Shown here piece after piece: positions 3,324 to 21,142 of a stretch of 64,000 nucleotides of DNA. The stretch lies in NCBI RefSeq assembly GCF_003337435.1, contig NZ_QPJS01000001.1:574513-638512 (forward strand). Reading direction: 5' to 3'. The stretch comes from Schleiferia thermophila. GTDB lineage: Bacteria > Bacteroidota > Bacteroidia > Flavobacteriales > Schleiferiaceae. The position numbers and the translations under genes were made by a program. The notes under the pieces were generated by a model. It was not told the origin of the DNA, made no database searches, and saw only the letters and a program-made list of their open reading frames with translations. The first letter of the stretch is position 1. Each line of letters starts with the position of its first letter.

Positions 3324-3408
3324 TATAGCGCCCCGAAATAAAAATAAAAAATCATCGTTAACCGGGATGACTAAACATACCTATATCAGTAACCTAATTC
3401 ATTGCAAT

Positions 3409-4830: not shown

Positions 4831-4877
4831 ATAAAAATAATTCCTAACAATTGTTTAACCTAAAAACCCAATGAAAA

Positions 4878-5549: not shown

Positions 5550-5580
5550 ACATATAAACATTAAATCAGAATAATATAAA

Positions 5581-7110
5581 ATGGCTCAGGGAAAACTCAG
5601 TCCAAGACAACGAATGATCAACATGATGTATTTGGTGCTTACAGCTCTGCTGGCACTGAATATATCTAAAGATATCCTCGAAGCACTTACAAAACTTAAC
5701 GACGACCTGTCCTCCACAGTGATGACCGTGGAGAAAAAGCTCGCGTTTATCTATCAGGCTTTTGACCTGGCTGCCTCTGAAAATCCTGAGAAAGCCGGAG
5801 TTTGGCGTGATAAAGCGTACGAGGTAAAAAAACAAGCTGATGAACTCCATAATTACCTTGAGGGCATAAAAAATGACCTTATAGAAATTACTGGCGGGAT
5901 TGATGAAAAAACCAATAGACCTAAAGGACTCGACAACAGAGAAAAAGTAGCCAACTATCTTCTGGTTAGCGAAGGTGGGAAAGCGCGGGAAATCAGAGCC
6001 AGATTAGAACAATTCCGGAACAACATGAAACAGTATGTAGATGAAGAAGCCGCACTTATAAACATGCTGGAAGCTTTATTTAATACGGAGAAAAAGAAAG
6101 TAGGTGATGTGATGATTGAATGGGAAAATGCCACATTTGAACACTTCCCGCTTGCAGCTGTCATCCCCTTTATTACTGGTATTCAGGCCAATGTACGCAA
6201 TGCCGAAGCTGATATTATCTCTCATCTTCAAAGAAACATTGGTAAAACCGATTTAAAGTTTACCGATGTTTACGCTGTGGTAAAACCAAATGCACTGTTT
6301 TTGACACAGGGGGAGACCTATGAAGCAGAAATTTTCCTTGCTGCCTTTGACGCTACCCAAAAACCAGAAATCTACATCAATGGCCAACCTCTGGATCCTT
6401 CATTGATAAACAATGGAATAGCTAAGTATCGCGTCCCTGCTAGTTCAGTAGGTGAAAAATCTTACTCAGGAAAAATTGTCATCAAACAAAATGGTGAACT
6501 CAAAGAATATGAGATTCCCACACAAAAATATACAGTAGCTCCATCTTCAGTTGTCATCTCTCCTACAGCTATGAATGTCCTTTATAGAGGTGTAGACAAC
6601 CCACTGGAAGTTGGTGTCCCCGGCGTTGATCCATCGAAAGTTGAAGTAAGGGGGCCTGGGCTCACCAAAAAGCCCGACGGTACTTACATAGTAGATATTA
6701 CCAAAATGGAGGGTACAAAGGCCAAATACGAAGTATTCGTAAAATCCGATGATGGTACCCGTAAGGCTGGAGAGAAGGAATTCAGAATTAAAGGTTTGCC
6801 TCAAGCATCTGGTATGATCTACAACAGAAAAGGCGGTCTATTCTCAGCTAACGCTGTTAAAGCAGCTGAAATTCAGGCTGTATTTGAGGACTTTGTTTTT
6901 GATCTTTCTTTGAATGTTATCTCATTCGAGGTAGTTATACCCGGATTCCCGCCTCAACAAATCAGAGGAAACAGATTTGATGATGCTGCCCGAAAAAAAA
7001 TTGAGTCACTAAGACCAGGCTCCAGTATTACCATCAGAAATATCAGAGCTGTAGGTCCAAAGGATTTTCAGGTAACCAATATCAGTCCGATCTCCATAGA
7101 TATTCAATAA
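5581..7110 (+). CDS. gldM: GldM type IX secretion motor protein
   Basis: 509 aa. The N terminus is MAQGKLSPRQRMINMMYLV, then a single transmembrane helix (about residues 17-36) ending LLALNISKDILEA, the typical start of GldM/PorM. The long periplasmic part begins with an alpha-helical bundle (about 40-220). It continues into beta-rich Ig-like domains (about 225-509), with GGLFSANAVKAAEIQAVFEDF near 415. GldM spans the periplasm and couples the GldL motor to the GldK/GldN ring. The stop is one base before the gldN start, so the two are translationally close. Confidence 0.95.
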   Translation: MAQGKLSPRQRMINMMYLVLTALLALNISKDILEALTKLNDDLSSTVMTVEKKLAFIYQAFDLAASENPEKAGVWRDKAYEVKKQADELHNYLEGIKNDLIEITGGIDEKTNRPKGLDNREKVANYLLVSEGGKAREIRARLEQFRNNMKQYVDEEAALINMLEALFNTEKKKVGDVMIEWENATFEHFPLAAVIPFITGIQANVRNAEADIISHLQRNIGKTDLKFTDVYAVVKPNALFLTQGETYEAEIFLAAFDATQKPEIYINGQPLDPSLINNGIAKYRVPASSVGEKSYSGKIVIKQNGELKEYEIPTQKYTVAPSSVVISPTAMNVLYRGVDNPLEVGVPGVDPSKVEVRGPGLTKKPDGTYIVDITKMEGTKAKYEVFVKSDDGTRKAGEKEFRIKGLPQASGMIYNRKGGLFSANAVKAAEIQAVFEDFVFDLSLNVISFEVVIPGFPPQQIRGNRFDDAARKKIESLRPGSSITIRNIRAVGPKDFQVTNISPISIDIQ

Positions 7111-7111
7111 T

Positions 7112-7939
7112 ATGAAAAAGTGGTCGTTCTTCCCGGTAATGTACCTTTTCGCCTTATCGATGCAGGCTCAGGTACTCTCGCCTCAGGATGATGGTATTAT
7201 TCCTTCCCAAACCAGGTTTCACAACAACAATAAAGTGTTTGAGTATCCCTACCTACGTGAAGCTGATCTGATGTGGAGTACACGTCATTGGGAGCGAATT
7301 GACCTTAAAGAAAAAGCAAATTTCCATCTGTACTATCCTGAAACTCCGCTGCCTGACAGAAAGTCCCTCTTCAGTGTGCTGATCGATGGAATTCTCAAAG
7401 AAGCGACCATCGTCGATGTATTTGGAGATGATCGATTCGAAATACCTTACACATCTGATGAGGTTAGCAGATATGTACGTACTATTGATACAATTTTTAA
7501 TCCCGATGATCCATCCAAAATTGACCTGATTGATACCATAGAAATCAAAAGCAAGGATGTGATCGCATATTATATCAAATCAGATTGGTATTTCGACAAG
7601 CAGAGGGGTGAATTGAAAAACAGGATTATAGCTATTGCACCTGTAGTCAAGAACCCAAAGACCAAGGACATTTATCCACTGTTTTGGATTTGGTTTCCGG
7701 ATGCGCGATATGCTTTAGCAACAAACACAGCCTTCAATCGCGGTAACAATATGCAACGTCTTACTTTTGATCAGGTCTTCCATTTGAGGTTTTTCTCTTC
7801 TGTCATTTATAAAGAGGAAAACGTGTACGATCGATCAATAGCAGATTATAAACGAAAGTCAACACTTGAGCAATTACTTGAAGGTCAGCAAATCAGGGAA
7901 AAACTCAGAAATTTTGAAAACGACCTTTGGGAATTTTAA
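7112..7939 (+). CDS. gldN: GldN/PorN type IX secretion protein
   Basis: 275 aa. The signal peptide ends near SMQAQ. Mature motifs are READLMWSTRHWERIDLKEKAN, FHLYYPETPLP, KEDWYFDKQ-type KSDWYFDKQRGELKNRI and the FWIWFPDAR stretch followed by YALATN, characteristic of GldN/PorN. It is a periplasmic partner of the GldK lipoprotein in the T9SS ring. It is the last gene of the core operon and is followed by a strong terminator. Confidence 0.95.
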   Translation: MKKWSFFPVMYLFALSMQAQVLSPQDDGIIPSQTRFHNNNKVFEYPYLREADLMWSTRHWERIDLKEKANFHLYYPETPLPDRKSLFSVLIDGILKEATIVDVFGDDRFEIPYTSDEVSRYVRTIDTIFNPDDPSKIDLIDTIEIKSKDVIAYYIKSDWYFDKQRGELKNRIIAIAPVVKNPKTKDIYPLFWIWFPDARYALATNTAFNRGNNMQRLTFDQVFHLRFFSSVIYKEENVYDRSIADYKRKSTLEQLLEGQQIREKLRNFENDLWEF

Positions 7940-7962
7940 AAGTGTTAAGTGGATATAAATTT

Positions 7963-7989
7963 GCCGTGGTTCACCACGGCTTTTTTTTT
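7963..7989 (+). terminator. Rho-independent terminator after gldN
   Basis: Perfect 7-bp GC-rich stem GCCGTGG (7963-7969) with CCACGGC (7974-7980), a 4-nt TTCA loop, then nine T residues (7981-7989). It lies 23 nt after the gldN stop and closes the T9SS core operon. Confidence 0.93.
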
Positions 7990-8016
7990 GATAACAAAAA
8001 GGTAATATTCAATAAG

Positions 8017-8024
8017 TACATTTG
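8017..8024 (+). promoter_or_regulatory. Bacteroidota -7 box before the nuclease locus
   Basis: TACATTTG matches TAnnTTTG exactly, 29 nt before the ATG at 8054 and just after the gldN terminator. No good TTTG -33 box lies at the usual distance, so only the -7 element is supported. It would drive the exported-nuclease operon. Confidence 0.45.
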
Positions 8025-8053
8025 TCCAGAAACATAGGATCAAGCCACTATTT

Positions 8054-9379
8054 ATGAAGCATTTATACTTTTTAGTACTTTTTTCGCTGGTATTTCTAGG
8101 CCTTAATGCACAAACTTATGACACGCTGAGAATTATGACATATAATCTACTCTATTACAGAGTAAATTTCAGCAATTGCAACGCTACAAGCAATAATCCT
8201 GATAACAAAGACAACTATATAGCCACTATTTTCGACCATGTTCAGCCGGATATTTTAATCGTTCAGGAAATGGGGGTTAATCCCGGTGCTTTTGATGCTC
8301 CGATGGTTGCCTTTCATCAAAATATCTTTTTAAATAGGGGTCTTACACATTATAAAAGGGCGAATTTTACCAGAAGTAATAATTCCAACATCGTCAATGC
8401 CTGCTATTATAACTCCAACAAAGTAGAGCTTAAATCCCAATTCCTGCTTACTAATGGAAGCAACAACCAAAACATAGTAAGGGGAATAGACTTTTACACT
8501 TTTTATTACAAGAATCCAAACCTGGGTCAACCAGGAGTTGATACCCTGTTTTTTGTATGTATTGGAATGCACCTGAAAGCAGGAAGTACACAATCGGATA
8601 TTACCCAAAGAACATATGCTCTGGAAGCTGTAATGAATCACATCAACCAAAATATTGGTGAACAAAATGTCTTTATAATGGGCGATTTTAACATGAATTC
8701 ATCCAATGAACCCGGTTTCCAGGCGCTGATCAATCACCCCAATCAGTCAATACGGTTTTATGACCCAATCAATACCCTCGGAACCTGGTTTAATAATTCC
8801 ACTTTGGCGTTTACCCACACCCAATCCACCAGGCTCAATCAAACAAATAACAACTGCTTTGTAGGTGGAGGCCTGGATGACAGGTACGATATGATATTGA
8901 TCACCGATCCTGTAAGGAATGAATCCATGGGTATGCGATATGTAACAAGTTCGTATACAATCCCAGGTAATGATGGATTGAGGTTTAAAAACTTTATTAC
9001 ATCAACCAGTCCTGTGCCTAATCAAAGTGTCCCACCCTCAGTATTGACTGCGCTATACGAAAATTCTGATCACCTGCCGGTATACATTGATGTAGTAGTG
9101 CTGAAAAGCAATTTATCAGTCAGCGATTTTACACACAAAAAGTGGAAATGGAATGCAACTTACAACGAGGGTGTCATACGAATACATACACAAGGAGAAA
9201 TGCCAACTTCTTTTAATCTTCAAATTACAGATCTTACGGGTAAAATCATTTTAACAAAAAAAATAGAAGACGCCACATACACGGATATTGTGTTAAGCAG
9301 CCGTCTATCTAAAGGAATCTACATGGTCAGTATCAATGATGCAGGGTTTACCAGCAGCAGAAAGCTAATAGTTTACTGA
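8054..9379 (+). CDS. Secreted endonuclease/exonuclease/phosphatase-family protein with T9SS type A domain
   Basis: 441 aa. The signal peptide ends FLGLNAQ. The EEP fold (DNase I-like) motifs are in order: LRIMTYNLLYYR (about 26-37), ILIVQEMG with the catalytic Glu, MHLKAGS, VFIMGDFNMNS with Asp and Asn, YDMILITD and SDHLPV with the terminal Asp-His pair. The last 80 residues form a T9SS type A sorting domain (ITDLTGKII, LSKGIYMVSI, SRKLIVY). A secreted nuclease or phosphodiesterase is likely; the substrate is not shown by sequence. The stop overlaps the next start by one base (TGATG). The neighbours are T9SS-exported and TonB-type proteins. Confidence 0.88.
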   Translation: MKHLYFLVLFSLVFLGLNAQTYDTLRIMTYNLLYYRVNFSNCNATSNNPDNKDNYIATIFDHVQPDILIVQEMGVNPGAFDAPMVAFHQNIFLNRGLTHYKRANFTRSNNSNIVNACYYNSNKVELKSQFLLTNGSNNQNIVRGIDFYTFYYKNPNLGQPGVDTLFFVCIGMHLKAGSTQSDITQRTYALEAVMNHINQNIGEQNVFIMGDFNMNSSNEPGFQALINHPNQSIRFYDPINTLGTWFNNSTLAFTHTQSTRLNQTNNNCFVGGGLDDRYDMILITDPVRNESMGMRYVTSSYTIPGNDGLRFKNFITSTSPVPNQSVPPSVLTALYENSDHLPVYIDVVVLKSNLSVSDFTHKKWKWNATYNEGVIRIHTQGEMPTSFNLQITDLTGKIILTKKIEDATYTDIVLSSRLSKGIYMVSINDAGFTSSRKLIVY

Positions 9380-11553
9380 TGAAACTTAAAGGCAGACTAT
9401 CATTTTTTTTAGCATTTTTGCTTTCACTTGGTCTTGGGGCACAGCAATTTGAAGAGCGAATCACCAATGCAGGTAATGTACGTCTTACAGTGACCAATGC
9501 CGGAACTTTCGGAAATGCTTTCAGGGGTTACAGGGATGGCACTGGCAGGCAGAGTTGTGAGTATCCTGCAGGTAGTGGAATTGAACATCTGTTTGAAGGA
9601 GGTCTGTGGGTTGGAGGTGTAAGACGTGGTGATGGGAGCATTCTGGTGAGTACATCGGCTTTGGATGCACCACAAGGCTATGCCCCCGGTAGAGCGGGTT
9701 TCGAATTTACCATACCCATCGGATCGCCTGGCTTACAAGAAAGGTCTTCGCTCACAGATTCAAGGTTTTTCACCCCCAATGCCGTATCACATCAGGATTT
9801 TGTAGCTATTTTCAACGATGTAAGCCAAACCATACCAGGAACTACTATACCAATCACCGGGCATCAGTTTCCGATGAATATTCAAGTCACACAGGAAACA
9901 TACAATTGGAATTTTTCTTTTTCGGACTTTTTTGTGGTGGTCAATTACAAGTTGAAGAATATCGGAAACGCCACCTTTGACAGTCTATTCGTAGCCCTGT
10001 GGAACAATACCGTGGTCCGGAATGTAAAAGTGACCCCCGCCGGTGCCGGCGGCAGTGTATTTTACAGTCAGGGAGGCAACGGATATGAAGATTCGCTTGC
10101 CCTGGCATATTGCTACGATGCCACCGGTGATGTGGGATTTACAGAAAGTTACATTGGTCAGAAATTTCTTGGGTCTGAAGATAAATTTGGATTTCATCAT
10201 TTCTTGCTCGACAGTACATACAACAAAAAAACCGGGCAGTGGGTAAAAGAGAATTTTAAAGCACATTACAATGCCTGGCAATTCAACAATGCAAACAATC
10301 CGATTTTCTTTTTTCCAACTAATGATGAGCTCAGATTTATCAAAATGACTTCCGGGCTTAACCATCACCCATGCTGGAATGAACCTACTTCAGCGGGATG
10401 TCAGTCCACTTTTGGCGTGGATCTGCAAGTAGAACTCAACAAGAGCGGAAATCGTTCGGACCTTGTCAGTGTGGGTCCATTTAATGATTTTCAACCGGGA
10501 GATGAAATTACGGTGACCTTTGCCTACATCATAGCTAAAAAGTTTGAAGACGGAAATCCCAATTCGGTAAACAGTCCTCTTCAAAGACAAAATCTGATCA
10601 ATAATGCCAACTGGGTTCAGGTGGCCTATAATGGAGAGGATAAAAACTTCAACGGTGTATTGGATTCGGGGGAGGACATAGATGGCAATGGAAAAATTAC
10701 AAGGTTTATTTTGCCATCGCCACCCGATATACCTCGCACACGTATAGAACCTTGCGATGGTAAAATCGACATTTATTGGTCTGATAACTCTCTCTACAGC
10801 ATTGATCCTATTTTGCAAGAAATGGATTTTGAGGGGTTCAGAGTATATATTACCAAGCCTGGTTTTGATGTTGTGAATGTACAGGATGTCAGTTCGGCTT
10901 TTGTACTTATCGCTGAGTTCGACGAGGTCAATGGAATTGGGAACGATGTAGGTCTTGATAAAATCATGCTCCCTGAACCAGTGAAGTTTGATGGAGATAC
11001 AGTGGAATATCACTTTAAATATACGGTGGATCAGCTCTTAAACGGATGGCAATATGCCGTGTCGGTAACGGCTTTCGACCGTGGTGATGCCTCTCTGAAT
11101 CTGGATAAGCTGGAGTCGTCCATACTGGCCAATCAATTTAGGGCGTATCCGGGAACTGGCACCAATGACAATATGAATGAAAATGAGCCCTATGTGTATC
11201 CAAATCCATACTACTATGGCAGTTCATGGGAAGGCATCAGCAATTTTCAGGAGGAGACTCGAAAAATTTATTTTTCGAACCTTCCAAAGAGGTGTAAAAT
11301 TTCCATATACAATCCTGTAGGTGAACTGATCGATGAAATTCATCATGATGAAAATTACGACGGCACCGACATCCGATGGTTTCGCTCTTTTTCAGCCGAG
11401 GACCCGTTTCGAAACAGATTTAGTGGTGGTGAACATGCGTGGGACTTGCTGTCCAAAAGTACTCAAATCATTTCAAGAGGTCTGTATTTGTTTACTGTAG
11501 TAGACCTTGAAACCGGTAAACGCTATACGGGAAACTTTGTAATCATCAAATAA
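9379..11553 (+). CDS. Large secreted protein with C-terminal T9SS/FlgD-Ig-like domain, function unknown
   Basis: 724 aa. The signal peptide ends LGLGAQQ. The N-terminal 120 residues have ITNAGNVRLTVTNAGTFGN and LFEGGLWVGG, a beta-rich pattern I have seen in uncharacterised secreted proteins of Bacteroidota and Ignavibacteria. Around residues 418-438 there is a calcium-binding-like acidic loop (DKNFNGVLDSGEDIDGNGK). A fibronectin III-like segment follows (about 455-570). The C terminus (YPNPYYYGSSWEG, ISIYNPVGELI, GLYLFTV, NFVIIK) is a T9SS type A/FlgD-Ig-like domain. No catalytic motif was found. It overlaps the nuclease stop by one base and precedes the OB-fold protein by 12 nt. Confidence 0.75.
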   Translation: MKLKGRLSFFLAFLLSLGLGAQQFEERITNAGNVRLTVTNAGTFGNAFRGYRDGTGRQSCEYPAGSGIEHLFEGGLWVGGVRRGDGSILVSTSALDAPQGYAPGRAGFEFTIPIGSPGLQERSSLTDSRFFTPNAVSHQDFVAIFNDVSQTIPGTTIPITGHQFPMNIQVTQETYNWNFSFSDFFVVVNYKLKNIGNATFDSLFVALWNNTVVRNVKVTPAGAGGSVFYSQGGNGYEDSLALAYCYDATGDVGFTESYIGQKFLGSEDKFGFHHFLLDSTYNKKTGQWVKENFKAHYNAWQFNNANNPIFFFPTNDELRFIKMTSGLNHHPCWNEPTSAGCQSTFGVDLQVELNKSGNRSDLVSVGPFNDFQPGDEITVTFAYIIAKKFEDGNPNSVNSPLQRQNLINNANWVQVAYNGEDKNFNGVLDSGEDIDGNGKITRFILPSPPDIPRTRIEPCDGKIDIYWSDNSLYSIDPILQEMDFEGFRVYITKPGFDVVNVQDVSSAFVLIAEFDEVNGIGNDVGLDKIMLPEPVKFDGDTVEYHFKYTVDQLLNGWQYAVSVTAFDRGDASLNLDKLESSILANQFRAYPGTGTNDNMNENEPYVYPNPYYYGSSWEGISNFQEETRKIYFSNLPKRCKISIYNPVGELIDEIHHDENYDGTDIRWFRSFSAEDPFRNRFSGGEHAWDLLSKSTQIISRGLYLFTVVDLETGKRYTGNFVIIK

Positions 11554-11565
11554 ATCCTTTATATC

Positions 11566-13827
11566 ATGAAAATGAAAAACTACTTCACACTATTGCTCAC
11601 AGCACTCGTATGCAGTGGTGTGGCTGCCCAGACAGTTCCTTATGTAAGCATACACGATATTCAGTATGTTTCGCCGACCAATCTGGCTAATTGTGTGGAC
11701 TCTTCTCAATACGAAAATCAACTGATCAGAACCAGGGGCATTGTGATCGTAGACGGAGGTAGAGTGGAGGTACCGTCATCGGCTGTTCAAGGCGGTTTCA
11801 GGCCCTTTATGTATATAGTTGATACGGCAGCTGCTGGTCAAATGGGGCCTTTCAAAGCGGTAGAAGTTGCTGGCTGGTATCCGAGTGGAAATCAACAGGT
11901 ACCTCATCCTATTGCATGGCAGGTAGTGGCCGGAGATGTGGTAGAGGTCATCGGATTGGTAAAAAACTTTAACCGAAATACTCAAATTGAACCCCAACAG
12001 TTCAGTCATATCAATCTCATATCGTCAAATGCACCTGTGCCTCAGCCTGCTGTGGTAAGTGTTGGTCAGCTCAATGATCAAAATCGCGTGAATCAGCTAC
12101 CTACAGGAGAGCAGTGGGAAGGGGCTTTTGTAGAAATTCAAAATGTAACGGTGGTGAATGTCGATTTTTTTGCCAATGGAACTCGTGTGAGTTTCGACGT
12201 GGTGGATGCAAATGGAAACAGAATCAACGTTTCTGACCGCTTTATAGCGCAAAGGCTTCCGACCTATCAGGTGACAAATCCCAATTCGCCCTATGCAACG
12301 ATCAATGGTGGACCGGGAACGGGCCTTTTTCAGCCACCTGTAGTAGGTGCATTCTACCAGAAGATCAAAGGCATCATTCTGCATTCGGCTAATGGCTGTA
12401 CGGGTCTGAATGGGAGGGGGTATGAGCTCAATCCATTTGACTCTACCCACTATGTGCTTGGGGCTACTCCACCGGTGATCTCGGACAAGCAGAGAGTACC
12501 ACCAGTTCCGAATCCTACCCAACAGGTAAAAATTACCTTTACAGCTAATGATCCGGATGGGACAGTAGCCAATGCCAAAGTATTTTGGAGCAGCAATTTG
12601 TCAGTACCTGTAGCTCAGTTTGACTCGATTACTGCTACACTCAAGCCTGGCACTACGGATGAGTATGAGGTCACCTTACCGTCCCAACCTCTCAATACTG
12701 TGGTAAGGTACTACATCAGAGCCACTGACAATCAGGGTAACGTTTCAAGACTGCCTACAGGAAATTTTAACAATGAGCCTAGGGTATTCCACTACACAGT
12801 ACGGGCATCTGGTATGGTAATCCCTGACATCCAATATGTATTGGATGGTGGTGATTCGCCTTACAGGGGTCAGCAGGTGACTGTAAAAGGCATTGTAACT
12901 TCTACAGCTAAAGACCAGGATATGGGCTATGTGTACATTCAGGATCCGGATTACAACGAGTGGTCTGGTATTTGGCTGGTGGGTGTCGGATTGTTTGACC
13001 TGTTCAGACATGAAGAAGTGCAAGTGACCGGGGTAGTGGAGGAGTTTTTCAATTACACGCGTCTGCAGGTAGTGAATGTGCAAAAGACAGGCAAGCTTGA
13101 CAGTACCTCCATACAGCCGGTGGTGCTCAATCCCTCGGACAGTGCTACGCTGCATCCGCTGAATATGGAGAAATATGAGGGTATGCTGGTCAGATTTCAA
13201 CATCCTACAACTGGGCAGAAAATCCGCATATCAGAACCTAAACTGACCTTTGGTGAATACCGGATAGCCACTCAAGCCGGTTTCACATCGCCAAACAACT
13301 CCTTCCGGGTGCATGCGGGTCGTCAGAGCAATACGGCGTTTAGCTCGCTCTGGGTACAGCCGGTCACTGATACCATATATGCTACCGTGGATGGGGTGAT
13401 GAATGTACCTCCGATAGTGACCAGCGATACCATGACTTTCGATGCAGTGCAGGGGATTGTGTTTTTTAGCTTTTCGAACTTCAAGCTGCATCCTCGGGCC
13501 AATGATGATTTCATCGGGGCAAACTTCCCTATGCTGCCTGTAACGGACCGACCCAGGTCTCCGATAAATGTGAGGGAATACGAACATGTGCGTGTATCGC
13601 TCTATCCAAATCCGGCTCATGACATCCTGAACATCACTTCTTCGGCCAATGAACACGTGATGGCTACGATTACAGATTTGCAGGGAAGAGTAGTGAAAAG
13701 GTTTGAAATACAGCCATTTGAGGTAAACACGTATGATATATCTGCTCTGAAAGCTGGTGTGTATTTGGTGACATTGGTTTCCAAGAGCGGTAATGTAATG
13801 GGAAATTCAAAACTTGTGGTTCAATAA
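11566..13827 (+). CDS. Secreted OB-fold/Ig multidomain protein with T9SS type A domain
   Basis: 753 aa. The signal peptide ends SGVAAQ. Two related regions (about 25-230 and 415-650) each hold a GIV/KGIV strand, a MYIVD or VYIQDPD strand, and the EQWEGAFVEIQNVTV or MEKYEGMLVRFQHP segment. This arrangement resembles the OB-fold/accessory parts of large extracellular nucleases (ExeM/YhcR type). Between them, near 310-410, is an Ig-like domain (ITFTANDPDGTV). The last 75 residues (LYPNPAHDILNI, ITDLQGRVVK, LKAGVYLVTL) are a T9SS type A sorting domain. No EEP nuclease domain is present, but a separate one is encoded at 8054, so it may bind the substrate for that enzyme (inference). Confidence 0.75.
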   Translation: MKMKNYFTLLLTALVCSGVAAQTVPYVSIHDIQYVSPTNLANCVDSSQYENQLIRTRGIVIVDGGRVEVPSSAVQGGFRPFMYIVDTAAAGQMGPFKAVEVAGWYPSGNQQVPHPIAWQVVAGDVVEVIGLVKNFNRNTQIEPQQFSHINLISSNAPVPQPAVVSVGQLNDQNRVNQLPTGEQWEGAFVEIQNVTVVNVDFFANGTRVSFDVVDANGNRINVSDRFIAQRLPTYQVTNPNSPYATINGGPGTGLFQPPVVGAFYQKIKGIILHSANGCTGLNGRGYELNPFDSTHYVLGATPPVISDKQRVPPVPNPTQQVKITFTANDPDGTVANAKVFWSSNLSVPVAQFDSITATLKPGTTDEYEVTLPSQPLNTVVRYYIRATDNQGNVSRLPTGNFNNEPRVFHYTVRASGMVIPDIQYVLDGGDSPYRGQQVTVKGIVTSTAKDQDMGYVYIQDPDYNEWSGIWLVGVGLFDLFRHEEVQVTGVVEEFFNYTRLQVVNVQKTGKLDSTSIQPVVLNPSDSATLHPLNMEKYEGMLVRFQHPTTGQKIRISEPKLTFGEYRIATQAGFTSPNNSFRVHAGRQSNTAFSSLWVQPVTDTIYATVDGVMNVPPIVTSDTMTFDAVQGIVFFSFSNFKLHPRANDDFIGANFPMLPVTDRPRSPINVREYEHVRVSLYPNPAHDILNITSSANEHVMATITDLQGRVVKRFEIQPFEVNTYDISALKAGVYLVTLVSKSGNVMGNSKLVVQ

Positions 13828-13838
13828 GTGATTTGGGT

Positions 13839-13863
13839 AAAAGCCGGCTCTTTGCCGGCTTTT
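13839..13863 (+). terminator. Terminator after the OB-fold protein
   Basis: 10-bp perfect stem AAAAGCCGGC (13839-13848) with GCCGGCTTTT (13854-13863), loop TCTTT. It lies 11 nt after the stop at 13827. The T tract is short and interrupted (TTTTGCTTT), so termination may be partial. Confidence 0.8.
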
Positions 13864-13955
13864 GCTTTAAGATCAGTTTGAAAACAACAGTTGAATGCAA
13901 GGAAGCGACACGATGGAGGTATGTGATGCGTGAGGTGGGTGGAGGGCCCGAAGGG

Positions 13956-13997
13956 GTCTCATCTGTGGCCTTCATGACCGAAGGCCACAGATGAGAC
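13956..13997. repeat. Perfect 17-bp inverted repeat, hairpin element 1
   Basis: The 17 bases 13956-13972 are exactly complementary to 13981-13997, around the 8-nt loop CATGACCG. There is no T run on either side, so a simple terminator is unlikely. It lies in the GC-rich gap 13864-14091, which has no gene, and is followed 20 nt later by a second perfect hairpin. It could be a REP-like element, an mRNA-stabilising structure or a small mobile remnant. Confidence 0.85.
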
Positions 13998-14017
13998 GGA
14001 ACCCCGGAACACACCGG

Positions 14018-14063
14018 CCCCTGCCGGCTGAACTCTGCCGACGGTAGACTCAGCCGGCAGGGG
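14018..14063. repeat. Perfect 14-bp inverted repeat, hairpin element 2
   Basis: CCCCTGCCGGCTGA (14018-14031) pairs perfectly with 14050-14063. The 18-nt interior contains a second small palindrome (CTGCCG A CGGTAG, with one G-T pair), so the whole block can fold into a long rod. It ends 28 nt before the lipoprotein start at 14092. It is GC-rich compared with most of the window. Confidence 0.85.
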
Positions 14064-14091
14064 ACACGCCCAAAGAAAATGATTAACAAAA

Positions 14092-15543
14092 ATGAAGATG
14101 CGCCTGATACATTGGACTCTGCTCCTGCTGGCTGTGGCAAGTCTGAGCCACTGTAAGCGGGGGAGTTTTAAGGAGAATCAACCTCCTGTGACCCAGCTTT
14201 TTTTGAACGAAATCAACCGGGTGGGAGAAAATAGATTGAATTCTACGGTTTTTCTTTCGTGGTTTGGTTCGGATCCGGATGGATATGTAGTGGGATATGA
14301 ATTTAGCTTGGATTTTGAGACCTGGACGTATACGACAAGAACGGATAGTGTATTTCGATTTTCCATCACTGCTGGCAATGACACGGATGATATTAATTTT
14401 TGGATCAGGGCTGTGGATAATCTGGGTGCGCGGGATCCGAACCCTGCATTTCTGAAAATTCCGCTGAGAAATACTCCGCCGGTAGCTACTATAGACAGGG
14501 GTGCTGCTCCGGCAGATACGGTGAGGATAGCAGCGACGTTCCGCTGGAGAGCTACGGATGCCGATGGAGATCATACCATCACAAAAGTGCAAATAAAGGC
14601 CAATGATGGGGACTGGGTCGATGTTCCACGGAATTCAAATCTCTTTACAATAGTGCTTCGGAAACCCTATCAAACCGGTGTGCATGAGGCTGATATTTAC
14701 ATAGACAATGCGCGGGTACCCCATGTACAGGCCTTTGACAAGATACGATATAACGATACCAATCGGGTGTACATTAGAGCTTTTGACATTGCTAATTCGG
14801 TGAGTTTGGTCGATACGTCTGAGGTTTTTGTGATGGTTCCGGCCTCAAGCGACTTTTTGGTAATCGGAGGGCAGCCCTCAAACATCTGGGATATATATAG
14901 GCCGATCATAGAACTGGTCAGCACAGGGTATGACTACCTGGATCTGATCAGGAATCAGGGAAAATACAGACCAAAGTTTTGGAATCCGACGTTCAGACAT
15001 GTAATAGCGCAGTACAGCCGGTTGTTCATTTTTACAGATCCGACGAATTATCAGAATCCTGTAACTGGTCAGTCGGCTTCGCTGCTGGTATTTATGGCTC
15101 CGGCTATAGCGGATTTCAATAATATCGGGGGAAAATCGCTGGTGACAACGACGCTTACAGCCAATGCCGATATTACGGCATTTTCGATTGCTTATCCGAT
15201 CGATGGGCTTGTGATATCGGGAGGTCAGGCCAGATTAACTGCTGACAGTACGATTTTTTCAGTACAAGGGACACCTCAGCAATATCCGGCCATGAAGCCG
15301 CAATTTGTGCTAACGGGATTGGTGCCTATCGTGCGATCGCCGGATTCTGAGCCGTTTTACAGGGCACAGCTCACCAAACTTCAAGGATGGCAGGGGGATA
15401 ATCTGGTGGGCGTGCGCAGACGCAATGGTCAAGGCCAGGTCCAACAGGTCTTTTTTGGAGTAAACCTTCACCACTTTGCCATGGATGGCAATCATTTGCA
15501 AACTTTACTACATCAAATCCTCAACAATGATTTCAACTGGTAG
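14092..15543 (+). CDS. Predicted surface lipoprotein, Ig/Fn3-like, upstream of TonB receptor
   Basis: 483 aa. The lipoprotein signal is HWTLLLLAVASLSHC, with the acylated Cys at residue 21. Residues 30-120 (TVFLSWFGSDPDGYVVGYEFSLD) and 125-190 (ATFRWRATDADGD) are Ig/Fn3-like beta domains with D-P-D-G and D-A-D-G turns. Residues from about 250 (DFLVIGGQPSNIWDIYRPIIEL) look like an alpha/beta domain of unknown family. The gene overlaps the TonB receptor start by 17 nt, which points to co-expression, much as SusD-like lipoproteins pair with SusC-like receptors. I do not see a SusD signature. Confidence 0.7.
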   Translation: MKMRLIHWTLLLLAVASLSHCKRGSFKENQPPVTQLFLNEINRVGENRLNSTVFLSWFGSDPDGYVVGYEFSLDFETWTYTTRTDSVFRFSITAGNDTDDINFWIRAVDNLGARDPNPAFLKIPLRNTPPVATIDRGAAPADTVRIAATFRWRATDADGDHTITKVQIKANDGDWVDVPRNSNLFTIVLRKPYQTGVHEADIYIDNARVPHVQAFDKIRYNDTNRVYIRAFDIANSVSLVDTSEVFVMVPASSDFLVIGGQPSNIWDIYRPIIELVSTGYDYLDLIRNQGKYRPKFWNPTFRHVIAQYSRLFIFTDPTNYQNPVTGQSASLLVFMAPAIADFNNIGGKSLVTTTLTANADITAFSIAYPIDGLVISGGQARLTADSTIFSVQGTPQQYPAMKPQFVLTGLVPIVRSPDSEPFYRAQLTKLQGWQGDNLVGVRRRNGQGQVQQVFFGVNLHHFAMDGNHLQTLLHQILNNDFNW

Positions 15544-18397
15544 AACTTTAAGAGGGATCTTGTGGCTGATAGCTGCGCTGTATTGGGGGATGGCGGGTGC
15601 CCAAAGCAGGTCATCTACCGGCAGCTTGAGAGGGAAAGTAACGGATGCCAAAACGGGTGAAGAACTCATCGGGGCCGGGGTGGTGATCGTCGGCACTTAT
15701 TTGGGTGCGTCTACAGATTTGGATGGAAATTATTTGATTTCAAACATCAAACCGGGGGATTATGTCCTTAGGGTTCAGTTTATCGGATATGCCACGCAAT
15801 TGATTACGGATGTGAGCATAAGGGCAGGGGAGACCAAGGTACTCAATGTGGCCCTAAAACCTCAGACGGAATCGCTCAATGAAGTGACTGTGGTGGGAAG
15901 AAAGAGCACTGTGAATCTGGAAAGTGCAAAAAGTGAGGTAACTTTCAAATTTGAAGAAATCAGCCAAATGAATGTGCGCAATGTTCAGGAGTTGGTAGCC
16001 ATGCAGGCCGGTGTGGTGCGCTCGCCCGATGGTCTACAGATCAGGGGTGCCAGAGTGTATGAAACGGAATATATCATCGATGGCATATCGGCCCAGGATC
16101 CGCTGGCTGGTACTGGATTTGGTGTAGAAGTGAGCTCCAATGCCATAAACAGCCTGAGTCTGATCACCGGTGGTGCTGGTGCTGAGTTTGGGGGCGGATC
16201 TTCAGGGGTGATTTCCACCACCATCCGAGAGGGAGGAGATCGCTTTGAAATATCAGGCAACTGGCAGAGGGATTATCTCATCAACGCTCAAAATCCCACT
16301 TCCTTCAACACGGATATTGTGGAAGTGACCTTTGCATCGCCTATACCGGGTACCAGGAAGAAAATGACGATCTTCAACAATCTGACTACACGACTGACGG
16401 ATGAATATTTTGGCCCTACGGCGAACCAGCTGATATCGTCGCTGCTGCCGGAACAGTCTAAACTTCTGGCGCCAAGGTATTCGAATACACACATACACAC
16501 GCTGAAACTTGCTTATCAGCTCAAGCCAGGTACTAAGATTACTTTTACCAATCAGTTCAGCCTTTCGATCAATCAAAATACGCGTATGTTGCAAATTGTG
16601 GGTTTTGATGCGATACTGGTGCCCGGATTTCAATATGCCAGAAGTCAGAATCTGGACAATGCCACTACCTATACACATAAATCAATACTGAACGCTGTAA
16701 ACATTAATCATCTGATAAACAAAAAGTTAGGTGTAAATATTTCGCTAGGAAGACTTTTTACCAACCTTAGGGCGGATGCCAATGGTCGGCCTTTTCGAAC
16801 GGAAACTGTTGATCAGATATTTGATGAAGACCATATCGTAACTGATCCAGTGGAGATTTTCAACCCCGGTGATCCTACGGGAACCTATTTTGTATTACCC
16901 GGTAATGGATTGGTCAACAATGGAGGTATTTCGCCCATCTGGCACGATCACTATGCGCAGGAATATTCGATTCGCACAAAATTTACATACAATCCAAACG
17001 ACAACATCAATTTTATTTCTTTTGGATTTCAACATTCGGCCAACGAATACCAGTGGGTAGACGTGATCAGACCCTGGGTAGGTGCCCCCATCAAAATCAA
17101 CGATACGACTTTTACCCCTTCGATAAGTATCGGCTCATCCAACGATATATGGGCTGTACGGCCACACAATGGTGGCTTGTTTGTAGAAGATAAAATCACC
17201 TACAAAGGCATACAGGCGACCCTGGGATTGAGGTTAAATTACTGGGCTATGGGGAGATTTGCCGATGAGGCAGTAGAAAACTCCCAAAGCCCTGTAATCA
17301 ATCAGGTACGAGAGGATTATCTTCGCAAGACTACTCAATTGTTAGGACTGCGTTGGAAGGCTCGTCTGATGCCGAGGATCAATGTATCCTTTCCGGTGAC
17401 AGAGAACAATGTGCTCTATTTCAACTATGGCCACAGCATGCGAATGCCGCATCCACGGTTTGTGTATGCGGGTTTGGACCCTGTATATCAAAACAGGTCT
17501 TTTTTGGCGAACCTCGGAAATCCGGATATTGACCCCGAAATCAACGTGAGCTATGAGGTAGGTATCAAAACCAAAGTAAATAAAGATCTGGGATTTACGC
17601 TCACGGCCTTCAACAACAACCGCTTTGACTACATTGTATCCAGGTCTGTTATTACCAGAGATCCTACCGGTCGTTTTGTAACCCGCACCATGTTTATCAA
17701 TCAAGACTATGCACGGATAGCTGGTGTGGAGTTAGGGTTTAATTATCGATGGCTTTCGCATTACAACTTTTTTGGGAATGCAGCCTATCAGGTGGCGCGT
17801 GGTAAATCCAATTCAGCCAGAGAATCCGCCCTGCAGATTGCTCAGAACGGCGAAGTGCAGCTCAGCAGAGAGCAGTATCTGGCTTTCGATCGACCCTGGA
17901 ACATCAATGTTGGGCTTATGTTCAGCCCGGATTCTACCTTCAAGGTTATGGGCAGAAAGATTACAGGATTCCGTGCATTTGCGATTTATCAGTATACCAG
18001 TGGATTCCGTTACACGCCAATGCGCCGTGTGGGAGAGCTGGAGGTGCGTCCCGGAGTGGAGCGCCCGCTCTTTATGCCCGAAAACGACAAATTCCTCTCC
18101 AGACTTGCTACCCCATGGCACAATGTGGACTTGAAAATCAGCTACGACTATTTCATCACCAAATTTACCGGGCTGACTTTTTCCATTGAAATGAGAAATG
18201 CATTGAACAATAAAAACGCGCAGATCATCAATCCCGTAACTGGTAGAGCCTATGAATTCGGCGATGACGTGCCCAATGATTGGAGAGATCCGCGTCCGGA
18301 GTTCAACGGACCGCAGGAGCGGGGATTGGACCCGCGCAATCCGGCGCGCTACTTACCACCGCGCCAGATGCTCTATGGTATAACATTCAGATTCTGA
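15527..18397 (+). CDS. TonB-dependent outer membrane receptor
   Basis: 956 aa from the ATG at 15527; this start gives a good signal peptide (WLIAALYWGMAGAQS), unlike the longer open frame from 15476. Domains: carboxypeptidase-regulatory-like beta domain (about 30-115, LRGKVTDAKTGEELIGAGV, DGNYLISNIKPGDY); plug (about 130-250, VRNVQELVAMQAGVV, GAGAEFGGGSSGVI); then a 22-strand-type barrel to the C-terminal Phe (YGITFRF). It imports a ligand using TonB energy. The N-terminal regulatory domain resembles SusC-type receptors, but the partner lipoprotein is not SusD-like by eye. The substrate is unknown; the nearby exported nuclease suggests nucleic-acid products. Confidence 0.9.
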   Translation: MISTGRTLRGILWLIAALYWGMAGAQSRSSTGSLRGKVTDAKTGEELIGAGVVIVGTYLGASTDLDGNYLISNIKPGDYVLRVQFIGYATQLITDVSIRAGETKVLNVALKPQTESLNEVTVVGRKSTVNLESAKSEVTFKFEEISQMNVRNVQELVAMQAGVVRSPDGLQIRGARVYETEYIIDGISAQDPLAGTGFGVEVSSNAINSLSLITGGAGAEFGGGSSGVISTTIREGGDRFEISGNWQRDYLINAQNPTSFNTDIVEVTFASPIPGTRKKMTIFNNLTTRLTDEYFGPTANQLISSLLPEQSKLLAPRYSNTHIHTLKLAYQLKPGTKITFTNQFSLSINQNTRMLQIVGFDAILVPGFQYARSQNLDNATTYTHKSILNAVNINHLINKKLGVNISLGRLFTNLRADANGRPFRTETVDQIFDEDHIVTDPVEIFNPGDPTGTYFVLPGNGLVNNGGISPIWHDHYAQEYSIRTKFTYNPNDNINFISFGFQHSANEYQWVDVIRPWVGAPIKINDTTFTPSISIGSSNDIWAVRPHNGGLFVEDKITYKGIQATLGLRLNYWAMGRFADEAVENSQSPVINQVREDYLRKTTQLLGLRWKARLMPRINVSFPVTENNVLYFNYGHSMRMPHPRFVYAGLDPVYQNRSFLANLGNPDIDPEINVSYEVGIKTKVNKDLGFTLTAFNNNRFDYIVSRSVITRDPTGRFVTRTMFINQDYARIAGVELGFNYRWLSHYNFFGNAAYQVARGKSNSARESALQIAQNGEVQLSREQYLAFDRPWNINVGLMFSPDSTFKVMGRKITGFRAFAIYQYTSGFRYTPMRRVGELEVRPGVERPLFMPENDKFLSRLATPWHNVDLKISYDYFITKFTGLTFSIEMRNALNNKNAQIINPVTGRAYEFGDDVPNDWRDPRPEFNGPQERGLDPRNPARYLPPRQMLYGITFRF

Positions 18398-18403
18398 GGT
18401 AGA

Positions 18404-19408
18404 ATGAGATTCTTTTTTACAGGTATCGCTTTATTGATATCGTTGAGTACCCGGATTTTGGCACAGGTGTTTCCCAGCTATGGGGGGGAAAGAGCCGGAT
18501 TGTCAGCCCTTACATTTTTGAAAAACGACATCAATCCGCGGTCAGCAGCCATGGGTGGAGCATCTGCTGCAATTACAGGGGATGCTTTCTCCATACTTTC
18601 TAATCCCGCTGCTTTGGTTCAGTTAAAAGAGCATGGCTTTACCCTGGCCAACAAGTTTATTGGTGCCGGCGTAAATCAGAGTTTTGTGTCCTACGTAAAT
18701 CCTCAAAGCGATGAAACATCGGTGTGGGGTTTTTCACTGAATTCGCTGACCTCGGGGTATATTAAAGAAAGAACGGAATTTATGCCTGGGGGTACTGGCA
18801 GGGAAATATCTGTAATCAACATGGCCTTTGGGGCTACCTATGCCAAAATGCTTACCGAACAGTTTTCGTTTGGACTTACCATGAAATACGTCTATGAGCA
18901 CGTGGCTGGGTTTAACAATCATACCGCAGCTGTTGATTTGGCATTTTTATACAAGACCGATTTCAAAAATCTTCAGTTTTCCGCTGTCCTGCACAATTTT
19001 GGAGGAAGCAGCTCGCTGGCATCCAGGGAGGACATCCCGGTCACTTTCAACCGGACTACCGGTATTGCACTTGAGTCGAATCCCGTGCCTACTGTTTTTT
19101 CAATTGGATTGTCGATAGTACCGTATAAAGTAGAGAAGCATTCGCTCCTGGCTTCTTTTCAAATAAGTCACCCAAATGACAACAGCGAAAACATCCGCCT
19201 GGGTGCTGAGTACACGTACGACAATCAGTTTTTTGGCCGTCTGGGATATAAGTTTAATGTTTTAGGACATGTATTTCCTACAGCTGGTGTAGGGATGGCT
19301 GCGCCTATGGCCGGCGGACAGGTTTTAATGATTGATTATGCCTTTACGGCCACAAGATTTTTTGGCTCACAGCATTTGATCGGACTAAGATATATGATGC
19401 CTAAATAA
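18404..19408 (+). CDS. PorV/PorQ family outer membrane protein
   Basis: 334 aa. The signal peptide ends RILAQ. The hallmark AGLSALTFLKNDINPRSAAMGGA (residues about 29-51) is followed by GDAFSILSNPAAL and then regular beta-barrel strands to the end. Family members (FadL-like barrels) include PorV, which shuttles T9SS cargo to the attachment complex, and PorQ. It starts 6 nt after the TonB receptor, so it belongs to that operon. Its presence next to several T9SS-tagged cargo genes suggests a dedicated cargo receptor, but paralogues elsewhere in the genome may be the main PorV. Confidence 0.8.
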   Translation: MRFFFTGIALLISLSTRILAQVFPSYGGERAGLSALTFLKNDINPRSAAMGGASAAITGDAFSILSNPAALVQLKEHGFTLANKFIGAGVNQSFVSYVNPQSDETSVWGFSLNSLTSGYIKERTEFMPGGTGREISVINMAFGATYAKMLTEQFSFGLTMKYVYEHVAGFNNHTAAVDLAFLYKTDFKNLQFSAVLHNFGGSSSLASREDIPVTFNRTTGIALESNPVPTVFSIGLSIVPYKVEKHSLLASFQISHPNDNSENIRLGAEYTYDNQFFGRLGYKFNVLGHVFPTAGVGMAAPMAGGQVLMIDYAFTATRFFGSQHLIGLRYMMPK

Positions 19409-19419
19409 TTTTGGTAAGG

Positions 19420-20619
19420 ATGAAAAGACTTTTTTCAATTTTAATATTGGCTATAATACTGACGGGTTGCCGGAAATACTTTGGTGAGAAGACCGACCTG
19501 GGATTTATCGACGTTCCGGAGTTTACCAACAGGGATATCGCATATGTACCCATTTTGCCGGCATTTACAGACTTTGTAAAACCTGTTGATATAGCAGTGG
19601 GGTTCGATGAACTCATTTATGTAGCAGATGAGGGCAGACAGGAAATAATACAATTGGATGAGACAGGCAGACGGCTGGGAAGCTTTTTCATTCCAGGGCT
19701 GAAATCCGTAACTCAGGACAGGCGTTTTGATTTGATCGCAATAGGTACTTCAGACACCGTGATCGCAGGTAATACCTTTACGTTCACATGTATATACAGG
19801 ATCCGGATGACCGGGCCGGAAGGCTACAAACTATCGCAGACCAATGCGCAGATCATCCGAAAAATTGTCCATCCGTTTTATTATAAAAGTACCTATTCTA
19901 CTTCAGATCTGAGTGTTCAGTTTAACCGAATTGCCGTAATCGCCTCAACCAATCCGGCAGAAAATAATTCCTATTTTGTAACGCGTACAGGGCCTGCCAA
20001 AAATCCGATCCTCGGCCCTGATGATGCAGTCTTGCTGTTCAACAACAACGACCAGTACATCACACCGGTGACGGTGTCCACCTCTCAAGGTACCTTCAAC
20101 GATTACTTTCAAAAGCCATTTGGTATAACCACCTTTGCAAAACCACCTCAAATCACTGCAAGGACAGGCCAGAATTTTATGGTAACCATGCTTGAGCCCA
20201 ATGCTGCCATCAAAGTGCAATACATCGAACGAATCGAAAGCGAATTTGGTGCTGAATACCGGCCGAGGATATTTCCATATGGCGACACTACCAGAGCAGA
20301 TGGAGGCATTCACGAGCCCTTTAAATTTGAAATGCCCTTAGGAATTACCATAAGTGGCGATGCTGCAGGATTTATCTTTGTAACGGATATCGCCAAAGAT
20401 TCTTTGTATCAGTTTTCATCAAATGGGCTAGAGGGGGTACAGCCTCCGGCCGCTACAGGGATAACAAAACTCCAAAAAGCCAGCTTCGGCGGCAAAGGCA
20501 GTGGTTTCACACAATTCAACCAACCTATGGCAGTGGCCTTTTTCAAGAAAATTTTGTACGTGGCCGATGCCAACAATGGACGAATTCTTCGCTTCAGATT
20601 AACTCTAGACTTTGATTAA
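19420..20619 (+). CDS. Predicted NHL/beta-propeller-like lipoprotein
   Basis: 399 aa from the ATG at 19420; a TTG three codons earlier is less likely. The lipoprotein signal is FSILILAIILTGC with the Cys at residue 17. NHL-like repeats are visible at both ends: VDIAVGFDELIYVADEGRQEIIQLDETG (first, about 50-78) and MAVAFFKKILYVADANNGRILRF (last). This suggests a closed six-blade propeller at the cell surface, probably for binding. It starts 11 nt after the PorV-like gene and ends the operon. Confidence 0.72.
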   Translation: MKRLFSILILAIILTGCRKYFGEKTDLGFIDVPEFTNRDIAYVPILPAFTDFVKPVDIAVGFDELIYVADEGRQEIIQLDETGRRLGSFFIPGLKSVTQDRRFDLIAIGTSDTVIAGNTFTFTCIYRIRMTGPEGYKLSQTNAQIIRKIVHPFYYKSTYSTSDLSVQFNRIAVIASTNPAENNSYFVTRTGPAKNPILGPDDAVLLFNNNDQYITPVTVSTSQGTFNDYFQKPFGITTFAKPPQITARTGQNFMVTMLEPNAAIKVQYIERIESEFGAEYRPRIFPYGDTTRADGGIHEPFKFEMPLGITISGDAAGFIFVTDIAKDSLYQFSSNGLEGVQPPAATGITKLQKASFGGKGSGFTQFNQPMAVAFFKKILYVADANNGRILRFRLTLDFD

Positions 20620-20705
20620 AATTACCCAAAGCAAATTTTTTAGTGATTTTGTACAATGAAACTGAAATTTTAATTCCAAGGCCTTCGTAAAACTGGAAGT
20701 TCTTT

Positions 20706-20713
20706 TATTTTTG
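20706..20713 (+). promoter_or_regulatory. Possible -7 box before the stand-alone sorting domain gene
   Basis: TATTTTTG fits TAnnTTTG, 18 nt before the ATG at 20732. The -33 position is not TTTG. T-rich sequence makes chance matches likely. Confidence 0.35.
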
Positions 20714-20731
20714 TCGTGTATTAGTATATGT

Positions 20732-21142
20732 ATGTTAAGATTTTTGGGGATTTTTTTTCTGCTGTTTTTCCTAATACCTCCGGGCCTTAAAGCACAGGGT
20801 GGAAACGATCGCATACCACCAGAGGAGAGAATTAATGAGTGTGTGCCTTTTATACCTACAGCGTTTACACCTAATGGGGATGGAATCAATGATCGTTTTG
20901 GAATTAAAATAAATCCAAACTGTTTTACAGTTCGTTTTAATATAAAGATCTTTGACCGCTGGGGAAGAATGATTTTTGATGCCAACGACCACCGTGAGCC
21001 GTACTGGTGGGACGGTACATTCGATGGCAACCCAATGAAAGAAGGCACTTACACCTATCACATCGTTGCAGAGTTTGAACTGCCCGACCGAAGCGATCGG
21101 GTTGAGGTGCGAAGGCACGGATTTTTTACGCTGATCCGTTAA
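20732..21142 (+). CDS. Small secreted protein that is almost only a T9SS type B sorting domain
   Basis: 136 aa from the ATG at 20732. The signal peptide is FLGIFFLLFFLIPPGLKAQ. After some 25 residues the rest is the gliding-motility-associated C-terminal domain (T9SS type B): FIPTAFTPNGDGINDRF, IKIFDRWGRMIF, YWWDGTFDG, GTYTYHI. These domains normally end proteins of several hundred to thousands of residues; here there is almost no cargo. It could be the surviving 3' end of a larger gene or a free sorting-domain protein. The C terminus FFTLIR is intact. Confidence 0.85.
   Translation: MLRFLGIFFLLFFLIPPGLKAQGGNDRIPPEERINECVPFIPTAFTPNGDGINDRFGIKINPNCFTVRFNIKIFDRWGRMIFDANDHREPYWWDGTFDGNPMKEGTYTYHIVAEFELPDRSDRVEVRRHGFFTLIR

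Follow-up and report, generated by a model that had tools for sequence, protein, structure and literature searches.

How does DNA pass across the outer membrane in Bacteroidota that have no type IV pili? This question is addressed here with a gene cassette on the plus strand of a 64,000-nucleotide stretch (the window) of the Schleiferia thermophila genome (2.6 Mb), positions 574,513 to 638,512 of contig NZ_QPJS01000001.1. The cassette encodes three secreted proteins with type IX secretion system (T9SS)-type tails, namely an endonuclease/exonuclease/phosphatase (EEP)-type nuclease, p753, and p724; two lipoproteins, lip483 and NHL402; a TonB-dependent receptor (TBDT); and an outer-membrane barrel of the PorV family. 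At about even probability, these parts would form a T9SS-built surface complex that captures nucleic acid (probably DNA), cuts it, and imports it by means of TonB; the cargo and the purpose are what we infer. A first-pass annotation of the sequence had proposed a nucleic-acid scavenging locus composed of the EEP protein, p753, lip483, the TBDT, the PorV-like protein, and the NHL protein. All of these parts were recovered on the plus strand by Pfam and NCBIfam scans of nine window proteins (7112–21142) or by the lipobox. The gene for p724 was absent from that list; it overlaps the EEP gene by the final base of that gene's stop codon.

The conservation of the gene order was determined within the family and across the phylum (L-numbers denote examined genomic regions, G000–G047 same-family genomes, and f-numbers families). 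The order p724-p753-lip483-TBDT-PorV-NHL is kept in 20 of 20 same-family regions, with the p724 of L045 cut by the end of the region. The EEP gene is present in 16 of these; L034, L046, and L050, all from a single genus, lack it, and in L045 it is out of reach. Of 48 same-family genomes, 46 carry the gene for lip483, compared with 0 of 31 other genomes of the same order. Among the best 80 of 208 named loci, which come partly from the same genomes as the G000–G047 regions, p753 was found in 68/68, lip483 in 63/63, the TBDT in 55/55, the PorV-like protein in 46/54, and the NHL protein in 42/50, where loci too short to reach the gene in question are left out of each denominator. The EEP gene is present in 58 of the 76 with at least 1.5 kb upstream. 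When the 48 named loci that are long on both sides are compared, 36 carry EEP, PorV-like, and NHL genes, 4 lack EEP only, and none has EEP without PorV-like and NHL; these are counts only, and relatedness inflates any test value. The median spacers along the seven genes are −3, 18.5, 52, −17, 2, and −4 bp (script-chosen starts). Because the genes overlap or are closely spaced, they are suited to a single transcript.

A profile of p724 was searched against 395 genomes of the phylum. Besides the host, approximately 108 genomes matched below E 1e-50, all of them outside the class of the window. Within the order, 29 of 196 genomes matched at E 1e-30, and all 29 belong to the same family. The distribution is therefore patchy, with one Flavobacteriales family and many families of other classes. 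In 43 regions from distant families, chosen not at random but for spread over families and for long contigs, the core p724-lip-TBDT-PorV-NHL is kept in 40 and all six genes in 31. The exceptions are L163, which ends near a contig end, and L164 and L216 of one family, which show p724-p753 only. The gene set is a real, deeply conserved unit. No description of it was found in the titles and abstracts of open-licence PMC papers.

Nuclease genes recur beside this unit. The comparison set consisted of 41 genomes from 26 families (40 distant genomes with an intact core and the host), with a total of 147 PF03372 genes over 154 Mb. Genes for EEP and phospholipase D (PLD)-type proteins were counted only where the match covers the catalytic part, since the labels often arise from a shared T9SS tail or OB part. 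An EEP gene lies directly beside the cassette in 13 of 41 genomes and 10 of 26 families versus 0.12 expected, and within 10 kb in 16 genomes versus 0.77 expected. The excess is about hundredfold, with a distance limit set after seeing the data and with genomes of one family that are not independent. The EEP gene is upstream of p724 in the window and L167, behind the NHL gene in L150, L171, L175, L178, L181, L182, L186, L187, L188, and L231, and divergent in L222, where a DUF5689+EEP fusion is found. An EEP T9SS tail at or over the cut-off was detected in 7 of 8 proteins scanned; that of L175 has none.

A PLD-type nuclease with a T9SS tail lies beside the cassette in 7 of 41 genomes. It is found directly behind the NHL gene in f31 (L169), f60 (L228), f61 (L180, L223), and f49 (L232), one gene beyond it in f55 (L227), and behind the EEP gene in f49 (L181). 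The assignment was made by Pfam in L169, L180, and L181 and by a full-length profile with two HKD motifs in the others; both motifs are intact in 10 of 10 proteins checked (7 of cassettes, 3 of other families). Twelve distant regions thus carry an EEP gene, seven a PLD gene, and one of these both, while the EEP genes of L154 and L177 are farther off and were not counted. In L174 the nuclease position is taken by a type I phosphodiesterase/nucleotide pyrophosphatase (NPP) gene. An EEP or PLD gene is therefore present beside the cassette in 19 of 41 genomes and 13 of 26 families, as PLD/NucT-like nucleases add three families to the ten with EEP, and one further family has the phosphodiesterase. 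The nearest curated names are MnuA (L171, L222), NucT (L169, L263, L265), and ExeM (L204, a Flavobacteriaceae-type EEP, and also the p753 proteins), all below cut-off. The genes had previously been linked by proximity only. This weakness is removed, because the unit is deeply conserved and is repeatedly accompanied by a nuclease. The features are collected in Table 1.

Table 1. Features of the cassette and its surroundings (window coordinates unless another region is named)
Feature	Position	Strand	Basis
Terminator-like site between gldN and cassette	7963..7980	+	pattern match
EEP nuclease with T9SS type A tail	8054..9379	+	PF03372, Por_Secre_tail over cut-off
p724, surface protein (724 aa)	9379..11553	+	predicted structure; tail by profile comparison
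p753, OB-fold/Ig protein (753 aa) with T9SS type A tail	11566..13827	+	NF033681 positions 1-229
Terminator-like hairpin and two long hairpins	13837..14068	+	sequence, folding energy
lip483, lipoprotein (483 aa)	14092..15543	+	predicted structure, lipobox
TonB receptor (TBDT), CarbopepD_reg_2 domain	15527..18397	+	PF13715, PF07715, PF00593; start inferred
PorV/PorQ-family outer-membrane barrel	18404..19408	+	NF033709
NHL402, NHL beta-propeller lipoprotein	19411..20619	+	NHL repeat, lipobox
Small protein, little beyond T9SS type B tail; accessory	20711..21142	+	TIGR04131 59.6 bits
Paralogous triad TBDT/p724-like/PorV-like	L294:7706-16496 = host genome C5:29.7-38.5 kb		

The EEP protein matches PF03372 at 35.9 bits (cut-off 24.5) and Por_Secre_tail at 31.7 bits (cut-off 27), as the first-pass annotation had anticipated in calling it an exported EEP-type protein with a T9SS domain. 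Residues N31, E72, H173, D211, N213, D339, and H340, which we take to be the EEP catalytic set, are invariant in 17 aligned sequences. No match to the ExeM model was obtained for the window protein at E 0.05. In a scan of curated models, neither this protein nor the EEP protein of L181 matched a nuclease model except via the T9SS tail, and a sequence search for solved relatives at E 0.001 returned the T9SS tail alone. The protein is predicted to be a secreted EEP-family nuclease in which catalytic-type residues are conserved.

Residues 440–666 of p753 match positions 1–229 of the 546 positions of the ExeM/NucH model (NF033681) at E 1e-14; the score of 54 bits is below the family cut-off of 300. 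The same front part was matched by distant p753 relatives in L149, L218, and L231 (3/3 tested). The p753 protein thus appears to resemble the non-catalytic front part of ExeM nucleases, in agreement with the resemblance of its repeated regions to accessory parts of such nucleases noted earlier. The p753 slot or its neighbor was scanned in four regions without a recognized p753 (L215, L221, L222, and L224). In L215 and L222 the slot is occupied by a T9SS protein whose DUF5689 domain scores over cut-off, and in L221 the frame at this position encodes a lip483-like protein of enlarged size that has a BNR-type match.

No family match was obtained for p724 or lip483 at E 0.05 in Pfam and NCBIfam. 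Among the best 80 of 208 relatives, the closest named relative of p724 is from Thermaurantimonas aggregans (84% identity); the others are from Phaeocystidibacter, Owenweeksia, Acidiluteibacter, and uncultured Schleiferiaceae and Cryomorphaceae. The structural model of p724 (pLDDT 88) has a beta-supersandwich at residues ~22–450, followed by further beta domains. Comparison of residues 22–450 with supersandwich domains of the glycoside hydrolase (GH) 94/GH116 type gave best rows with Z 18–20 over ~240–280 residues. The tail is T9SS type A-like with an insertion (hhalign probability 95.5%, E 1.5e-8) and is shown by profile comparison only; the EEP and p753 tails are over the Pfam/NCBIfam cut-offs. 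In several distant families, a secreted-looking protein of ~370–820 residues with a similar LysM-like end was seen by eye on the same strand upstream of p724, in L214, L219, L220, L225, L230, L160, L163, and L168.

The lipobox cysteine of lip483 is invariant in 45 aligned sequences. The model of this protein (pLDDT 92) contains two fn3/Ig-like domains and a glutamine-amidotransferase/ThuA-like domain (253–483; Z 12–14). In the C-terminal domain zero cysteines or histidines are invariant or nearly invariant among the 45 sequences, and lip483 is probably not an enzyme. Function does not follow from a shared fold, and the predicted folds of p724 and lip483 would speak for a nucleic-acid ligand no more than for a sugar-like or polymer one. 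The second lipoprotein, NHL402, matches the NHL repeat and NHL propeller structures, and its lipobox cysteine is invariant in 25 sequences.

The TBDT has a plug and a barrel (PF13715, PF07715, PF00593; 31 sequences aligned). Its open reading frame opens at 15476, and with an ATG start at 15527, deduced from the sequence, the gene overlaps that of lip483 by 17 bp, as had been noticed before. The best solved match is a TonB-linked receptor whose ligand is not stated, and it covers the N-terminal quarter only. The score of 89.8 bits is below the SusC/RagA cut-off of 368. No clear grouping with a characterized peptide, vitamin, or glycan receptor, which the first-pass annotation had named as contrary evidence, appeared in the comparison with solved structures. 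The SusD family was not found among the nine window proteins. The barrel scores 155.7 bits with NF033709 (cut-off 90), which places it in the PorV/PorQ family, and among solved structures it is closest to PorV of the T9SS translocon (E 4e-26). It is below the PorV equivalog cut-off (63 vs 250 bits) and is one of six PorV-family matches in the genome. A lipid pore of the FadL type was rejected for this protein, as the match to TodX (E 0.001) is weaker than that to PorV.

The p753-lip483 spacer is 264 bp in the window versus at most 59 bp in 20 relatives (script-chosen starts). It contains two long, nearly perfect hairpins at 13956–14063 and folds with z = −8.7. A second copy of the hairpin stretch was not found in the genome at E 1e-5, and a dispersed repeat was rejected on this ground. 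The hairpins and partial terminator reported near 13.9 kb are real, and the shorter spacers of the relatives show none. Because there is no other genomic match and the spacers of the relatives are short, the split is peculiar to this genome.

The host genome contains a paralogous triad, which consists of a TBDT of 1215 aa that matches the cassette profile at E 2e-64, a p724-like protein of 1356 aa, and a PorV-like protein. The same triad was found in 4 of 4 other, distant genomes examined (L296–L299), and the p724-like protein measures 1150–1356 aa overall. Nuclease-profile matches beside the triad cover T9SS tails only. Because the triad is present in five genomes, the TBDT, a p724-like protein, and a PorV-like protein seem to be the core design, to which the OB-type protein, the lipoproteins, and the nuclease would add the substrate. 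The core architecture alone is not a mark of nucleic acid, because a triad without a recognized nuclease exists. The triad suggests a wider family.

A working scheme for the complex can be proposed. The polymer would be held at the surface by p753, through its OB-fold, and by p724, and would be cut by the EEP nuclease or, in other lineages, by a PLD-type nuclease. The lipoproteins may cover the TonB receptor as a lid or serve it as a feeding arm, a role that SusD and BtuG have at their own receptors. The PorV-like barrel would tether T9SS cargo beside the receptor, and fragments would reach the periplasm via TonB. Of the cutting, binding, and import of nucleic acid originally suggested for this locus, the conserved unit with its recurrent nuclease stands, and the bound and imported polymer is the conjectural part.

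Several known systems are related in design. In SusCD systems and utilisomes, such as the levan utilisome, a TonB receptor is likewise combined with surface lipoproteins and a surface enzyme. In BtuBG, a propeller lipoprotein (BtuG) is found beside a TonB receptor, as in the cassette. The cassette differs from both in having no SusD and in having T9SS cargo and a PorV-like barrel as partners. A vitamin riboswitch, as the BtuBG comparison would suggest, was rejected; Rfam matched only tRNAs in the window and four distant loci, and no riboswitch was found. The OB-type front and the EEP domain of ExeM/NucH both have a counterpart in the cassette, but on separate T9SS-tailed proteins, and the match to the one-chain OB + EEP model is confined to positions 1–229 in p753. 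The barrel belongs by sequence to the same family as PorV of the T9SS translocon, but as a paralog. The glycoside hydrolase or lyase families of a polysaccharide utilization locus were absent from the nine proteins scanned.

Previously, insertions in two genes of Riemerella anatipestifer, RA0C_RS04915 (TBDT-like) and RA0C_RS04920 (DUF5689), were described as abolishing natural transformation (PMC8459023), and tonB mutants as transforming less (PMC8383284). There a TBDT-like protein adjoins a DUF5689/OB-type surface protein, a layout that the cassette may resemble in part: the window p753 has no profile similarity to the DUF5689 lipoproteins, yet a DUF5689 domain over cut-off occupies its slot in L215 and L222. 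Eight f3/f6 loci, in families taken for Flavobacteriaceae and Weeksellaceae, were paired with the Riemerella genes by shared domains and gene order. The DUF5689 gene is behind the TBDT gene in these loci, directly in 7 of 8 and with a small gene between in L205; one small gene at this place is also described for F. columnare (PMC8459023). An EEP-type protein is encoded divergently beside the TBDT in 7 of 8 loci, not in L209; PF19580 was confirmed in L204 and L205, and the other five have GDFN and SDH motifs. L207 and L208 have an EEP-type gene on both sides of the TBDT/DUF5689 pair. In contrast to the cassette, the receptor is a different one, p724, PorV-like, and NHL genes were not seen in the f3/f6 loci, and the DUF5689 protein there has a lipobox with an invariant cysteine and is not recognized T9SS cargo. 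In f8/f11/f14, a T9SS protein of ~300 aa is followed by a TBDT and then by a PLD-type T9SS protein; DUF5689 and PLDc_2 were confirmed in L263 and L264, the lamin-tail domain was tested in L264, and similarity to NucT was found in L263 and L265.

A profile of the eight f3/f6 TBDTs finds the f8/f11/f14 TBDTs at E 6e-62 to 8e-56. The best six cassette TBDTs are at 6e-15 to 5e-12, and unrelated TBDTs at 4e-11 and weaker. By this comparison, the f3/f6 and f8/f11/f14 TBDTs are specific relatives of each other, and the cassette TBDT is not one of them. A 933-aa second receptor in an f3 genome (L295:6077-8878) is specifically related to those of f8/f11/f14 (E 5e-157) and has no recognized DUF5689 or nuclease neighbor. 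In the host genome, a lone 931-aa T9SS-tailed protein (L189:7978-10773; C1:131978-134773) has two weak DUF5689 matches; no others were found in the genome at E 0.001.

Several observations weigh against a nucleic-acid import complex. In 12 of 26 families no EEP, PLD, or NPP-type gene is directly beside the cassette, and 8 of the 48 long named loci (best 80 of 208) have p724-p753-lip483-TBDT without EEP, PorV-like, and NHL. The p753 slot of L215 and L222 includes a chitobiase C-terminal domain, and the T9SS protein of L224 matches SusE slightly above cut-off. The predicted folds of p724 and lip483 are common in sugar enzymes, the paralogous triad has no recognized nuclease, and a GH65 gene is ~5 kb from it in the host genome. 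The EEP, PLD, and NPP families include lipid-cleaving enzymes. In the comparison with Riemerella, the cassette TBDT was rejected as an ortholog of the Riemerella-type receptor (the f3/f6 profile standing in for the Riemerella sequence), p753 showed no profile similarity or alignment that would support it as an ortholog of the Riemerella-type DUF5689 protein, and the authors of PMC8383284 ascribe the tonB effect partly to iron shortage. The same complex might instead handle a glycan or another polymer, with nucleases that clear DNA or arrived by chance. The supersandwich of p724, the ThuA/GATase-like fold of lip483, the chitobiase and SusE domains, the GH65 gene, and the families without an adjacent nuclease or phosphodiesterase all fit this idea. 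It is nevertheless judged unlikely, as glycoside hydrolase and lyase families were unmatched in the nine window proteins, OB/DUF5689 domains are present, and nuclease company of more than one fold is far over expectation. Phospholipid utilization, with EEP, PLD, and NPP enzymes as phospholipases and lipid entry through the PorV/FadL-type barrel, could draw on the lipid-cleaving members of all three folds and on the weak similarity of the barrel to Toluene_X, which is below cut-off (E 2e-6). It is very improbable; the barrel is closest to PorV and not to TodX, partners are OB-fold proteins, and for partners with any match the nearest curated models are nucleases, below cut-off.

Long DNA might also pass the outer membrane through the cassette as part of a phylum-wide natural-transformation machine where type IV pili are missing. 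The requirement for the Riemerella TBDT/DUF5689 pair agrees with this proposal, as does the host genome, which encodes ComEC ~21 kb upstream of the cassette and helix-hairpin-helix proteins and in which no secretin match was found; 11 of 13 same-family genomes are likewise without a secretin match. A side observation in the host genome is the overlap between a gene for a 691-aa helix-hairpin-helix protein and one that weakly matches the PorV family (L271:3053-5952; C4); it may have a bearing on how DNA is handled in the periplasm. A missing pilus pore fails to explain the spread of the cassette, because 25 of 30 distant carriers tested have a secretin. ComEC is widespread (10 of 14 control genomes) and is no proof, the Riemerella-type receptor is no specific relative, and a secreted nuclease would destroy donor DNA; this proposal is distinctly unlikely. 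Finally, the cassette might be a structural or biogenesis part of the T9SS or outer membrane, such as a second PorV-type site of cargo attachment, and its neighborhood would then be meaningful. Directly upstream, at 3157–7939, are gldKLMN-like genes for the T9SS motor and ring, of which the adjacent gldN was confirmed by family and the preceding three are taken for gldK, gldL, and gldM by position. The closeness of the barrel to PorV and the lipoprotein gene in 46 of 48 same-family genomes also agree with such a role. However, gldM/gldN are upstream only in the nearest relative, L033, of 20 regions, most others of which reach ~2 kb upstream, and a terminator-like site lies between gldN and the cassette. 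The T9SS is widespread in Flavobacteriales, whereas p724 is confined in the order to one family. A TonB receptor and nucleases do not fit a T9SS part, and this role is quite improbable. At the other end of the cassette, 13 of the 20 same-family regions have the small T9SS type B gene following the NHL gene.

If the cassette does import nucleic acid, feeding on extracellular DNA as a source of carbon, nitrogen, phosphate, and nucleosides is the likelier purpose, and uptake for recombination is the alternative. A broader proposal is made tentatively, as a possibility less likely than not. The cassette would be an ancient machine by which Bacteroidota import nucleic acid with the help of TonB, so far without a description. 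Its components would be T9SS cargo, a tether of the PorV type, lipoproteins, and nucleases that can be exchanged, and it would be distributed from Schleiferiaceae to classes outside Bacteroidia. Cousins with other receptors and the same OB-type and nuclease partners would serve pilus-free DNA uptake for transformation in Flavobacteriaceae-type bacteria. The recurring combination of a TBDT, an OB-type protein, and a nuclease would link the hypothesis of feeding on extracellular DNA with a genetically proven transformation locus. The cassette provides a named, conserved gene set for direct test and suggests a type of TonB system whose SusD position may be taken by T9SS cargo and a PorV paralog.

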